A stretch of 51,377 nt of DNA from Halanaerobiaceae bacterium (GTDB lineage: Bacteria > Bacillota > Halanaerobiia > Halanaerobiales > Halarsenatibacteraceae), in NCBI GenBank assembly GCA_003553485.1, contig PWEJ01000055.1:1-51377 (forward strand), in the 5' to 3' direction. This document shows, one piece after another, positions 9,851-51,242 of the stretch (positions within the stretch are counted from its first letter, which is position 1; every line of letters starts with the position of its first letter). Made by a program: the position numbers and the translations under genes. The notes beneath the pieces were generated by a model. It worked only from the letters and a program-made list of their open reading frames with translations, did not search any database and had not been told where the DNA came from.

Positions 9851-10133
9851 GCAAAAACCGTCTCCCACTATACCCCATAGTAAGAGACGGAAATTTCCGC
9901 GGTACCACTCTCTTTAGCAAAATGCTCACTTTCTACCATTAACGCTGGTCATACGACTTTTCCTAAAGTTAGGCTTTCATTTTCAGAAAAGTATCTCCCA
10001 GGTGCGTTTCCACAGAAAACTGGGCCAGGCTTTCAACTACCCCGGCTCGCTTAGCCAGTTAACTGCTTACTACTCCTGCTCATAGATTTTCTAAGCTGAT
10101 TTCTTTGTTTTAGTTTGTTAAATTAGTAAAACT
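9851..10133 (-). promoter_or_regulatory. T-box riboswitch leader of the peptide transport operon
   Basis: On the minus strand this leader contains the T-box core GTGGTACCGCGG (about 9897-9908), a Stem I with AGTA, an AGCGAGCC-type distal bulge and a GTTGAAAG-like apical loop, then a terminator hairpin. T-boxes read the charging state of one tRNA by pairing with its anticodon in the specifier loop and with its CCA end at the T-box. The specifier strand reads GGAAACGCACC: taking the triplet followed by the conserved A gives CGC (Arg, 10004-10006); the overlapping ACG (Thr, 10005-10007) is the alternative. The operon is therefore probably induced when one amino acid runs short. Confidence 0.9.
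9853..9890 (-). terminator. T-box expression-platform terminator
   Basis: A 33-base hairpin with arms CCGTCTC and GAGACGG extended through the middle, followed on the minus strand by a T-run, just downstream of the T-box core and 25-60 bases before the permease start. It competes with the antiterminator formed by the T-box sequence. Confidence 0.85.
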
Positions 10134-10271: not shown

Positions 10272-10601
10272 TTAATAATTTTTCAGGCCTCTAACAATAA
10301 ATCTATGAGAACTCCCCGTGCTCACCAATTTAATGGTAATTCCCTCTTCAGGGTCTTCAGCACTGAAAAATTTCTGCACATAAACATCTATCTCTCCCAG
10401 CTCTTCTTTTTTAAACATATCGAAGGTATCTTCCTGGGGACTTTTGACCCGTACCACGGGCGCAAAGGTTACCCCGCTTCATCCTCCACCCCTTTGCTCC
10501 AGCATTATGGTAAGGGCTTCAACATTCCTATCCTTTAGATAATCTTCTGCCTCTTTAGTTAAATTGACTTTATACTGAGAAAGTTCCTTTTCCGTCTTCA
10601 T
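10272..10601 (-). CDS. HesB/IscA-like selenoprotein (UGA-encoded selenocysteine at residue 41)
   Basis: A 109-residue protein that reads through an in-frame TGA at 10479-10481. The gene starts at ATG 10601 after a perfect AGGAGG. The first 40 residues end in EQRGGG, codon 41 is TGA, and the frame continues SGVTFAPVV to a TAA. GG-Sec-SG aligns with the GGCSG motif of HesB/IscA iron-sulfur scaffold or carrier proteins, so selenocysteine replaces the first conserved Cys. This fits the HesB-like (seleno)protein family that I recall from other anaerobic Firmicutes. A bacterial SECIS-like hairpin follows the TGA. The C-terminal Cys pair of typical IscA is absent, so a canonical cluster-carrier role is doubtful. 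An automated caller would see only a 61-residue fragment. Confidence 0.87.
10448..10460 (-). promoter_or_regulatory. Bacterial SECIS apical hairpin
   Basis: On the minus strand the sequence CCCGTGGTACGGG forms a five-base-pair stem (CCCGU/ACGGG) with loop GGU, beginning 18 bases after the TGA. A GGU-type loop at about this distance from UGA is what SelB recognises in known bacterial SECIS elements. Confidence 0.78.
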
Positions 10602-10763
10602 TCTTTTAACCTCCTGTTATAATTTATAATTCAATCTGTAATAATCTCTTTGTCAGTCCAATTATAACATCCAGATTGAACAAAATATGTGGAGCAGTTA
10701 ACAGTTTTTAGATTCTAATATTGTTCTATTGCTTCAACCACTATTATTAAAGCTAAGTTCAAT

Positions 10764-14667: not shown

Positions 14668-15270
14668 TTAGGGTAAATTGATTTTTGAAGTGCTGATTTT
14701 ATCAATATCTATCATATTACCGGCCACTACAAGATACTTCTGCTGAGCTTTTTCGGCCAGCCACTGATTTATCCAGCCATTTAAATCGCGGAAAAGCCGC
14801 CCCAGGGAATTAGGTGGCACTACTCCCTGACCAACCTCATTGCTGACGGCAATTATCAGATAATCATTATCAGCTGCAATCTCTAAGAGGGTTTCTAGTT
14901 CCTCTATGATCTCAGTTTTTATTTCATTAAGGGCTAGCTTTTCTTTCTTTTCTGGATTATCATTATCCTGCCAGTCTAAAAGCCAGTTAGTCACCAGCAG
15001 AGTTACACAGTCTAAAATAATAGTTGAAGCTGGTTTTAAGGCAGCATCTTTGATAGCTGCAGCGAGATGTAAAGGTTCTTCCACAGTCTGCCAGTTATCA
15101 GGTCGTCTATCTTGATGGATGGTTATTCTTTCTTCCATCTCACTATCACCGGCCCGGGCCGTCGCCAGGTAACAGACCTGGGACCCGACTTCTTCCTCTC
15201 TTTTCCGGGCAATCCTTTCAGCCCAGCTGGATTTGCCGCTTCTAGCACCACCAGTCAATAATACCAGCAT
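14668..15270 (-). CDS. cobU: Adenosylcobinamide kinase / guanylyltransferase
   Basis: A 200-residue bifunctional enzyme that phosphorylates adenosylcobinamide and attaches GMP, a late step of cobalamin assembly and salvage. The N-terminal P-loop reads LLTGGARSGKSSWAERIA; YLATARAGDSEMEERI, the catalytic-region IHQDRRPDNWQTVEEP, DCVTLLVTNWL and VSNEVGQGVVPPNSLGRLFRD are all standard CobU motifs. The ATG overlaps the BtuF-like gene's stop (TAATG), so it is translationally coupled and lies under the same cobalamin riboswitch. CobS and CobT are not in the window. Confidence 0.94.
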   Translation of the reverse strand: MLVLLTGGARSGKSSWAERIARKREEEVGSQVCYLATARAGDSEMEERITIHQDRRPDNWQTVEEPLHLAAAIKDAALKPASTIILDCVTLLVTNWLLDWQDNDNPEKKEKLALNEIKTEIIEELETLLEIAADNDYLIIAVSNEVGQGVVPPNSLGRLFRDLNGWINQWLAEKAQQKYLVVAGNMIDIDKISTSKINLP

Positions 15271-16250
15271 TATATTTCCGCCAATTCCTCAGCCAGTTCA
15301 GGGTATACAGCTTTGGTCAGTTCAATCAGACCATCGATGATTCGCGGAGAAGGTCTATTAACTTTATCTTCGTCAATTAGATAAACCCGCTCTTCCTGCA
15401 CAGCAGTCAGAGCCTCGTAATTCTCTCTCTCTGCGATCTCAGCAAAGAGTTCCTCAGCGTCCATACCAGGGTCATGGGGGCTGGTTATATAAACATCTGG
15501 ATCTTCTAATATTAGAGTTTCCTGGTCAAACATGGGCCAGCCTTCTCCAGCCTGACCTCCTAAATTTTCAGCTCCAATAATATTTAAAAGATCTTCTATA
15601 TAAGTATTTGTGCCGGCTGTGGTTAAGGGATCATGCCAGATCTCATAGAAAACCAGGGGAGTTATATCATCTTTAGTTTCAGTAAGTTCTAAAATCTGGT
15701 TAAGTCTATCTTCCATCTTCTCAGCAGTATTTTCAGCAACAGTCTGCTTGCCTGTTAGCCTGCCTACTTTATCAATTAGTTCAAAGGTGAAATCTAAATT
15801 AGTGGGATCTTCAAAGCCTGCCACCTCTAACCCCAGATCCTGAAGGGTTTCAATTTCGTCAATAGGATTGATTCCGGTGGCCACTACTAGATCAGGATCC
15901 TTTTCCACGATAGCCTCTATATTGGGCTCAGTAATGGAGCCTATCGTCTCTACCTCCATCGCTTCAGGTGGATAATCGCAATAGGTCGTGACTCCTACTA
16001 TATTATCACCTAAATCCAGGGCAAATAATAACTCTGTAATGCTTGGCGCTAGAGAAACTATTCTTTCAGGAGTTTCAGAAAAATTTAACTCGGTATCAAA
16101 ATCATCGGTTACTGCCTCTGGAGTATCAGCCTGTAATATTCCTGCTGATAAGATAAATATCATGAGAGTAAGAGCAAGGGTGATAAAAGAAACTCGTTTA
16201 ATTTTCCTTACTAAACTTTTTCTGAGCAAAGAATGTTCTTTGGTCATCAT
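15270..16250 (-). CDS. btuF: Cobalamin/corrinoid ABC transporter substrate-binding protein (BtuF-like)
   Basis: A 326-residue periplasmic binding protein of the iron/B12 class (PF01497-type). After a signal peptide (about residues 17-42, ending ILQA) the fold opens with RIVSLAPSITELLFALDLGDNIVGVTTYCDYPPEA, a strong BtuF signature, and later has GQAGEGWPMFDQETLI. No lipobox Cys is visible. Its position downstream of a cobalamin riboswitch and coupling to cobU make a corrinoid the likely ligand. No BtuC or BtuD gene follows, so permease and ATPase must be elsewhere. The ATG at 16250 follows GGAGG. Confidence 0.9.
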   Translation of the reverse strand: MMTKEHSLLRKSLVRKIKRVSFITLALTLMIFILSAGILQADTPEAVTDDFDTELNFSETPERIVSLAPSITELLFALDLGDNIVGVTTYCDYPPEAMEVETIGSITEPNIEAIVEKDPDLVVATGINPIDEIETLQDLGLEVAGFEDPTNLDFTFELIDKVGRLTGKQTVAENTAEKMEDRLNQILELTETKDDITPLVFYEIWHDPLTTAGTNTYIEDLLNIIGAENLGGQAGEGWPMFDQETLILEDPDVYITSPHDPGMDAEELFAEIAERENYEALTAVQEERVYLIDEDKVNRPSPRIIDGLIELTKAVYPELAEELAEI

Positions 16251-16567: not shown

Positions 16568-16735
16568 AATTGCAAGTTAGTTAGCTTAAAAGCCCAGGCA
16601 TAATGCAAATATTTCCAGCGATTAATTTAGAAAGATAAACAACTTATCACCAAAAATAGATTATTCTTCTTAACTTTTAAGCTAGAACAATATAACCCTA
16701 CCCTCTTGCCGCCGAAGGTATGGTAGGTACATTCT

Positions 16736-16900
16736 CAGGCAGGTCTCCTGACTTCTGGCATTAACAGCTCTACCTTCCCTGCTTATAGCAAGTGGCTTAA
16801 AGGAGCTGATTTAGCCAGTAACAGTGGCGGGCCCGTCCAGGATTTTCACCTGATTCCCTATTCTCTCTCAGCCGTAACTGAGAGCACCTGAAAACGTATT
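16736..16900 (-). promoter_or_regulatory. Cobalamin riboswitch
   Basis: Read on the minus strand, the aptamer runs from the P1/P2 region CAGGTGCTCTCAG, through GGGAATCAGGTG and ATCCTGGACGGGCCCGCCACTG (core with the GCCACTG B12 box, here near 16822-16831) to the closing AGTCAGGAGACCTGCC. These are the conserved elements of the AdoCbl-type riboswitch. It controls, in order, a 28-residue membrane peptide, BtuF and CobU. A possible promoter (TATAAT-like) lies near 16950. About 470 bases separate the aptamer from btuF; this space holds two terminator-like hairpins and the small gene. Confidence 0.94.
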
Positions 16901-17028
16901 TTTACTTAAAGAAACCAATATATAATTTTAAATAAATCTCTTAGGCTTATTATATTGTTTCTATAAAAGTGGTGAATGTCCTTCTTTTAAGTTCAATTTT
17001 TTGGGGAAATTTTATTAAACTCCTTTGC

Positions 17029-49793: not shown

Positions 49794-51242
49794 TTACATT
49801 TTGCTTTCAGCTTTTTTTACTATATCATCGAGCTTCTTAACGACATCATCGGGCAGTGGTTCCGGTTCATAGTTCTCTAAAATATCTTTGACTTTTTCAT
49901 TGGCTCGTTCGAAGAGAGTCTTTTCTCCCTCCATCTCCCAGTTGTCATAGAAAACTCGCTGGAAGAGTTCTGGATACCAGGTTTCTTCTTTGAAATATTT
50001 CATGGTGTGTTCTTCTCCCAGGAAGTGACCACCGGGGCCTACTTTATCAATTATATCCGTTGCCAGGGTGTCATCGTTGACTTCAATTCCCCTGACTATT
50101 CTGCGAGCAAAGCCGATAAGTTCATCAGAAATTACCAGATTTTCCAAAGAAGCAGCATTACCATGTTCAATATAACCCACATCATGATTTAGATTAGCTC
50201 CAGATTGAGCCGTCATCACAATAGAGAGTGCATCTTCAATAGCAGCCTGCTCGTCTACAACCTTGGAATCTGAACATCCACAGGTACCAAACATCGGTAT
50301 ATCTAAATAATTTGAGACGTCAGCCAGGCCAGCCTGCATCAGATGAAATTCCGGTGCTCCATAGGAGAAGATAGTAGTATTCATGTCCATGATGGTGAAA
50401 ACTCCACCCATAATAAAGGGATTACCGGCATTAGTCTGCTGATTTAATACTAATCCACTTAAACTCTCTGCTAAACCTGTGGCCATTGCCCCAGCCAGAG
50501 TAGCCGGCACAGTTCCACCAGCCATTATACAGGGCGTATAGACAACTGGCAATGATTTTTTCCCGGCCAGCACCAATTTTTGAGCTGCATCCTCAGCATG
50601 TTGCAGCGGTGAAATTGGTTCAGCATAAAGAGTCATAAAGGGATTATTTTTCAGCTCATCCTCTCCTCCTACTACAACTTCACACATTTCAATGATATCA
50701 GCATATCCTTCTACATCATTGGCTGTTATGACTATTGGCTTGGAAGTATTCAAAACCATAGCCTGGAATTGGTGACGATCATAAACAGGTTGTGGGACAT
50801 CCTGCACAATACCCAAAGACATTACAAAGTCTAGATTTTCTAGAGAATCAATGGTTTTAGTGGCCATGGAAACAGTTTCTTTGCTAGCAGTTATCCTGTC
50901 TCCACTGTAGGGATCTATGAATTTAGGAGTATCTGAGCCAGTTCCAAAGTAAGCATTATTACCGGTCAATTCCATGACTCTTTCTCGTGTTCGGCTGTTA
51001 CTCAAGGTTACCTTACTGGGAGCTGAAGATATAGCCTGATCAACCAGACGGGCTGGTATTTTGACTCTATTATCTTCAACAAAGCAGCCGGCATTTTCCA
51101 TTATCTCTAAAGCTTCTTCATCATGATAAACTACACCGGTACTTTCCAAAATCTCCATTGAAGCTTCCAGTATCTTTTTTATCTGATCTTCAGATAAAAC
51201 TTCTAATACTGTTCCAGAATTTACTTTATAACTGCTTTTCAT
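49794..51242 (-). CDS. MttB-family methyltransferase 2 (non-pyrrolysine)
   Basis: A 482-residue MttB-superfamily methyltransferase. It has ILESTGVVYHDEEALEIMENAGC, FGTGSDTPKFIDPYSGDR, PLQHAEDAAQKLVLAGKKSLPVVYTPC and GCSDSKVVDEQAAIEDALSI, the usual family motifs. No in-frame TAG is present, so no pyrrolysine. It is immediately downstream of a corrinoid protein gene (21-base gap), the standard pairing for quaternary amine methyltransferases such as MtgB. Its relation to copy 1 is distant, suggesting different substrates. Confidence 0.92.
   Translation of the reverse strand: MKSSYKVNSGTVLEVLSEDQIKKILEASMEILESTGVVYHDEEALEIMENAGCFVEDNRVKIPARLVDQAISSAPSKVTLSNSRTRERVMELTGNNAYFGTGSDTPKFIDPYSGDRITASKETVSMATKTIDSLENLDFVMSLGIVQDVPQPVYDRHQFQAMVLNTSKPIVITANDVEGYADIIEMCEVVVGGEDELKNNPFMTLYAEPISPLQHAEDAAQKLVLAGKKSLPVVYTPCIMAGGTVPATLAGAMATGLAESLSGLVLNQQTNAGNPFIMGGVFTIMDMNTTIFSYGAPEFHLMQAGLADVSNYLDIPMFGTCGCSDSKVVDEQAAIEDALSIVMTAQSGANLNHDVGYIEHGNAASLENLVISDELIGFARRIVRGIEVNDDTLATDIIDKVGPGGHFLGEEHTMKYFKEETWYPELFQRVFYDNWEMEGEKTLFERANEKVKDILENYEPEPLPDDVVKKLDDIVKKAESKM

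Follow-up and report, generated by a model that had tools for sequence, protein, structure and literature searches.

A predicted cysteine-free member of selenoprotein family NF041239 with a predicted A-type carrier fold in a Halanaerobiaceae bacterium

Introduction

The A-type carriers IscA, SufA and ErpA (PF01521, TIGR00049) have a C-terminal CxC, and as the ligand test for such a carrier we took three Cys residues, one in the GG-C-SG turn and the others in the CxC. The IscA fold is also found in DsrR of Allochromatium vinosum (PDB 2k4z), which has a role in sulphur oxidation, is not a selenoprotein and is not known to have the cluster Cys; DsrR is a possible precedent for use of the fold outside cluster carriage. 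In the HesB-like family TIGR01911, selenocysteine (Sec) occupies the position of the first Cys of the HesB motif, and the fold class is that of the protein described below. A 2026 review keeps TIGR01911, with the motif UxGP, separate from NF041239, which it lists as a predicted selenoprotein, a 'hypothetical protein predicted in Moorella thermoacetica', with the motif CxxU (PMC13188914). NF041239 is already catalogued as a selenoprotein family, and the protein described here is a new divergent member of it.

Genes interrupted by UGA are split or missed by routine annotation, and the gene that we describe is one of them. It lies in a stretch of 51,377 nucleotides (nt) from a Halanaerobiaceae bacterium (contig PWEJ01000055.1), which we call the window and whose host genome is a 2.84-Mb draft of 172 contigs that is 98% complete. 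For comparison we sampled 398 genomes across the phylum and collected profile matches to NF041239.

Results

Read-through translation of the minus strand from position 10601 to position 10272 gave a gene of 109 codons in which the UGA at 10481–10479 is the sole interruption. The gene comprises 40 codons including the ATG start codon (10601–10599), the TGA, 68 more codons and a TAA stop codon (10274–10272), and it is preceded by the Shine–Dalgarno sequence AGGAGG (10610–10615, minus strand) with an 8-nt spacer to the ATG. The product begins MKTEKELSQ and ends RGLKNY, and the UGA, which is the same codon as the TGA of relatives, would place Sec at residue 41 within a GGG-Sec-SG turn (LEQRGGGUSGVTFAPVV). 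A first-pass annotation of this DNA had joined the two half-frames around the TGA into a 109-residue protein with an AGGAGG site; this holds, and the strand, which had been left unstated, is the minus strand. A plus-strand reading of 10272–10601 was rejected because no open gene lies there. A scan for consensus promoters revealed no convincing promoter immediately 5′ of the gene.

The read-through protein scored 51.6 bits on NCBIfam NF041239, whose cut-off is 40 (E 7.5e-14), the match covering residues 11–105 and positions 2–90 of the 91 in the profile. TIGR01911 (cut-off 66.35 bits) was not listed for the protein by hmmscan, a TIGR01911 search of the whole window genome at E 0.001 gave no match, and just 4 NF041239 members produced weak cross-hits to that model. 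Judged by profile match, the window protein is a member of NF041239 (the CC/Se motif family, Moor_selen_rel) and not of the classical TIGR01911. A search of genome contigs for related loci with the window protein as the single query gave no match. The window TGA falls in the column in which other members show TGA or Cys, and the protein shares with Moorella-type members, besides a score above the cut-off, a similar length, the Sec column and the distance of the hairpin from the UGA. It differs from the listed CxxU motif in having Gly in place of the −3 Cys; indeed, the sequence reads RGGGU, with Gly at both −3 and −1, and the CxxU/CC motif is absent. That motif is a published label that is not strictly defining and is absent from some members passing NF041239: of the 50 Sec members examined, 23 lack Cys at all three of the positions −3, −1 and +1.

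Across the phylum sample, an NF041239 match was found in 90 of 398 genomes, 87 of which are Sec-decoding, and a TGA-bearing member in 78. The gene selB is present in 76 of these 78 genomes, an association (table [[76,2],[190,130]]) for which Fisher's test gave p = 6e-13, uncorrected for relatedness. Within the taxonomic family of the window, the gene occurs in five of eight genomes, with one TGA per match, and the members found there (L047–L052) carry the TGA at the window's codon. More widely, the aligned TGAs share one column, in which most phylum members have TGA, and the Cys forms are mostly CC with the second C in that Sec column. Three long-branch paralogs (L061, L089 and L090) have neither Sec nor Cys there; in L061 and L089 the active column reads GTAGG, and their genomes also hold a Sec copy. 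Another locus (L064, minus strand) holds tandem paralogs at 1401–1685 and 1700–1990, a CU (Sec) copy and a CC (Cys) copy, which form a natural Sec/Cys pair. The family tree rests on too small a number of alignment columns for a reliable count of Sec/Cys exchanges.

Pairwise codon comparison revealed purifying selection upstream and downstream of the UGA alike. In the downstream part, dN/dS was 0.04–0.22 in all eight pairs, the comparison of the window with L047 giving 0.22 with synonymous sites near saturation, and these uniformly low values indicate that the second half of the gene is translated.

The first-pass annotation had also pointed to a hairpin, CCCGU-GGU-ACGGG, 18 bases after the UGA. 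This core is present, and one G–U pair extends its stem to the predicted bacterial SECIS hairpin GCCCGU-GGU-ACGGGU (10461–10447, minus strand), with 6 bp and a 3-nt apical loop, GGU, whose first base is G and which starts 23 nt after the UGA. These values lie within the loop, stem and spacing limits of a bacterial SECIS model that specifies a loop of 3–9 nt with G in the first two positions, a stem of 4–16 bp and a distance of 16–37 nt from the UGA (PMC13188914). The same model sets an energy limit of at most −7.5 kcal/mol (PMC13188914), of which the bare 15-mer falls narrowly short at −7.3 kcal/mol and beyond which the 61-nt stretch lies at −18.5 kcal/mol. Taken as a single sequence the hairpin is weak: the 61-nt fold has a z of −0.4, which is not significant, and of the 1897 TGAs on both strands of the window, 64 are followed at a comparable distance by a hairpin at least as stable as −6 kcal/mol, so the case must rest on comparison.

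Six distinct hairpins of the window group (window, L047, L048, L050, L051 and L052) served for this comparison. Their stem is maintained by compensatory, two-sided exchanges (UA to CG; UA to AU and CG), 92.9% of cells are paired, and the covariation score is 0.438 versus 0.221 for shuffled sequences; none of 500 shuffles reached 0.438, and slid registers gave 0–0.16. In the relatives within the group the loop, GGU or GGC, starts 23 nt after the UGA, or 20 nt after it in members shorter by one codon, whereas Moorella-type members have a 7-nt loop and a different 3′ arm at an equal distance from the UGA. Together, the TGA at the same codon, the two-sided purifying selection and the covariation of the hairpin provide decisive comparative evidence for the observation.

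The host genome contains the genes for decoding Sec. All of them lie on one contig, C66 (L092 and L093), where selD (381 bits), tRNA-Sec (selC; 70.7 bits, with which the ARAGORN call of tRNA-SeC concurs), selA (590 bits) and selB (360 bits) lie within approximately 30 kb. The selenoprotein reading of the first-pass annotation is upheld by the presence of selA, selB, selC and selD, with both selB and selC on this contig, and by homologs with Sec or Cys in this position rather than a stop with no Cys or Sec version. Next to selA on the contig are grdX and sarcosine reductase genes of the GrdG/GrdF type. Further UGA-bearing frames are found in the genome: a sarcosine/glycine reductase selenoprotein B frame (grdF-like) on C66 ends at TGA, selD has its own in-frame TGA, and grdA, on another contig, has one TGA. 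Downstream of both the SelD and the GrdF-like UGA lies a 7-bp stem with a 3-base loop; the loops begin at distances of 20 and 18 nt, an architecture shared with the window gene. Six long open reading frames (ORFs) in the window terminate at TGA, which indicates that UGA is an ordinary stop elsewhere in the window. As judged from sequence, Sec insertion at the UGA in the window organism is very likely.

A second recoding system was also noted. An MttB-type methyltransferase ORF of the window (49794–51242, minus strand) has no in-frame TAG, and a match to Rfam PYLIS_3 (pyrrolysine insertion element, 39.3 bits) lies within its DNA at 50177–50276. Because pylS is present on contig C157 (276 bits), the organism probably decodes both Sec and pyrrolysine.

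An AlphaFold2 model of the window protein, made with 51 family members, had a pLDDT of 91 and a pTM of 0.80. The top Foldseek matches of the model were SufA, IscA and AQ_1857 (E 4–6e-4), and realignment gave Z 7.8–8.2 to E. coli IscA, SufA and [2Fe-2S]-bound IscA, the highest value, 8.2, being shared by SufA and the cluster-bound IscA; Z 8.2 is a modest value, and the first unrelated chain scored 2.6. The ten best structural matches of the predicted model (Z 4.9–8.2) are all IscA/SufA-type or annotated Fe–S biosynthesis chains, and DsrR gave Z 6.6. A sequence search of the PDB returned no relevant match, leaving the fold comparison alone informative. At the profile level, PF01521 is touched by 16 of 51 members and IscA, SufA or ErpA models by others, with weak E-values; the window protein itself scores 14.3 bits against PF01521, below the gathering score of 26.3.

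The confident model thus predicts an A-type carrier (IscA/SufA/HesB) fold for the window protein. The protein and the A-type carriers have the G-G-[CU]-[SA]-G motif in common, and at the sequence level its GGG-U-SG turn presumably resembles the first-Cys motif of IscA; in contrast to the carriers, it is without the C-terminal CxC. The designation HesB/IscA-like in the first-pass annotation agrees with the fold (Z 8.2 and weak but consistent profile matches), whereas by sequence the protein belongs with NF041239 rather than TIGR01911. We found no statement of an IscA-type fold for NF041239 in the literature examined, and it may be noted elsewhere.

The window protein has zero Cys, and 10 of the 50 Sec members, the window protein included, are Cys-free. 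Among these 50, Cys occurs at −3 in 16, at +1 in nine, at +3 in seven and at −1 in two, and the C-terminal CxC is missing in nearly all family members. Set against the three-Cys ligand test, the window protein has Sec at the first site and no further Cys; the earlier suggestion that it is not an ordinary cluster carrier fits this lack of Cys, which does not prove it.

Analysis of gene neighbourhoods revealed a thioredoxin or a thioredoxin–thioredoxin reductase (Trx–TrxR) fusion beside or near the family gene at 18 of the loci compared, which represent five taxonomic families (f20, f44, f48, f54 and f95). In f20 the thioredoxin gene is often co-directional with the family gene and some tens of bases downstream of it; in f44 and f95 the distance is approximately 900 bases, with a divergent gene in between, and the neighbour protein in f48 is a weak thioredoxin match. 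Thioredoxin adjoins the family gene at L016, L020–L022, L025, L027, L029–L031, L034 and L040; the fusion, whose TrxR part matches TIGR01292 with 369 bits, is found at L044 and L045.

The window gene is isolated: a divergent MFS transporter gene lies on one side of it and a peptide/nickel-type ABC transporter operon with a T-box leader on the other. For this gene and its nearest relatives we recognised no thioredoxin neighbour and no neighbour in common. The T-box leader (9880–10092, minus strand), with a terminator-like hairpin at 9858–9890, lies just downstream of the selenoprotein gene and upstream of the ABC operon. Elsewhere in the window, a cobalamin riboswitch (16721–16906, minus strand, 119.7 bits) lies upstream of a substrate-binding-protein-like ORF (15270–16250).

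Discussion

We consider it highly probable that this NF041239 protein has an IscA fold and receives Sec at its UGA. In the mechanism that we propose, SelB and Sec-tRNA(Sec) would read the UGA at 10481–10479 as selenocysteine, directed by the hairpin at 10461–10447, and would yield a product of A-type carrier fold with Sec in the GGG-U-SG turn and with neither the C-terminal CxC nor any Cys. This product would act as a mono-selenol redox protein, the selenol of which would react with an oxidant or a small substrate (peroxide, polysulphide or disulphide), and the oxidised Sec would then be reduced by the thioredoxin system. Because there is no resolving Cys, an intramolecular selenenylsulphide is impossible, and oxidised Sec would have to be reduced by another molecule or else serve as a ligand. 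The thioredoxin neighbours in other lineages favour a thioredoxin-coupled selenol/thiol redox role over ordinary cluster carriage; since none was recognised beside the window gene or its nearest relatives, the proposed redox partner is taken over from remote members of the family. A thioredoxin-linked redox function is plausible, if somewhat short of probable.

The absence of a PF01521 carrier from the 98% complete genome keeps Fe–S or metal handling as the main rival to this redox role. In this rival, Sec would take the place of the first Cys ligand and the protein would bind Fe or [2Fe-2S] as a dimer, standing in for the missing A-type carriers, which would suit both the IscA/SufA fold of the predicted model and the location of Sec in a motif like that around the first Cys of IscA (GGG-C-SG). 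However, many anaerobic Firmicutes live without A-type carriers, the protein has no C-terminal CxC and zero Cys, and the recurrent partner is thioredoxin, a redox protein, with no isc or suf genes recognised in the sampled, partly annotated neighbourhoods. We regard such handling as rather unlikely.

A role in selenium or sulphur trafficking or sensing, in which the selenol would bind persulphide, selenide or a metal(loid) and pass it on or signal, seems to us distinctly improbable. It would accord with the single chalcogen residue of the window protein and with the near-restriction of the family to Sec-decoding genomes (87/90), but such restriction is expected of any selenoprotein, Cys-only members exist, and no selenium-metabolism neighbour was recognised. 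That the UGA is an ordinary stop, in a pseudogene, through misreading of TGC or TGT as TGA or under genome-wide reassignment of UGA, is hardly credible: one interrupted frame in a draft assembly might suggest it, but the sequence-error and pseudogene readings are ruled out because independent genomes, both within the taxonomic family and in the wider phylum, have TGA at this codon and because purifying selection acts downstream of it, and the six window ORFs that end in TGA speak against reassignment.

NF041239 comes in CxxU, UC, CU and U-only versions, so that the 'CC/Se' motif is not invariant, and with the window gene a family listed as hypothetical gains a divergent branch without Cys. This family is now given a predicted fold, that of the A-type carriers, and a recurrent neighbour, thioredoxin, which make its function testable. 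Tentatively, the CC/Se family may be an A-type-fold branch in which the cluster-ligand site has turned into a thioredoxin-coupled selenol redox centre, with the window group, having one Sec and no Cys, as its minimal form. If this is true, the window group would represent a novel type of redox protein that relies on a single selenol and does not have the thioredoxin fold.
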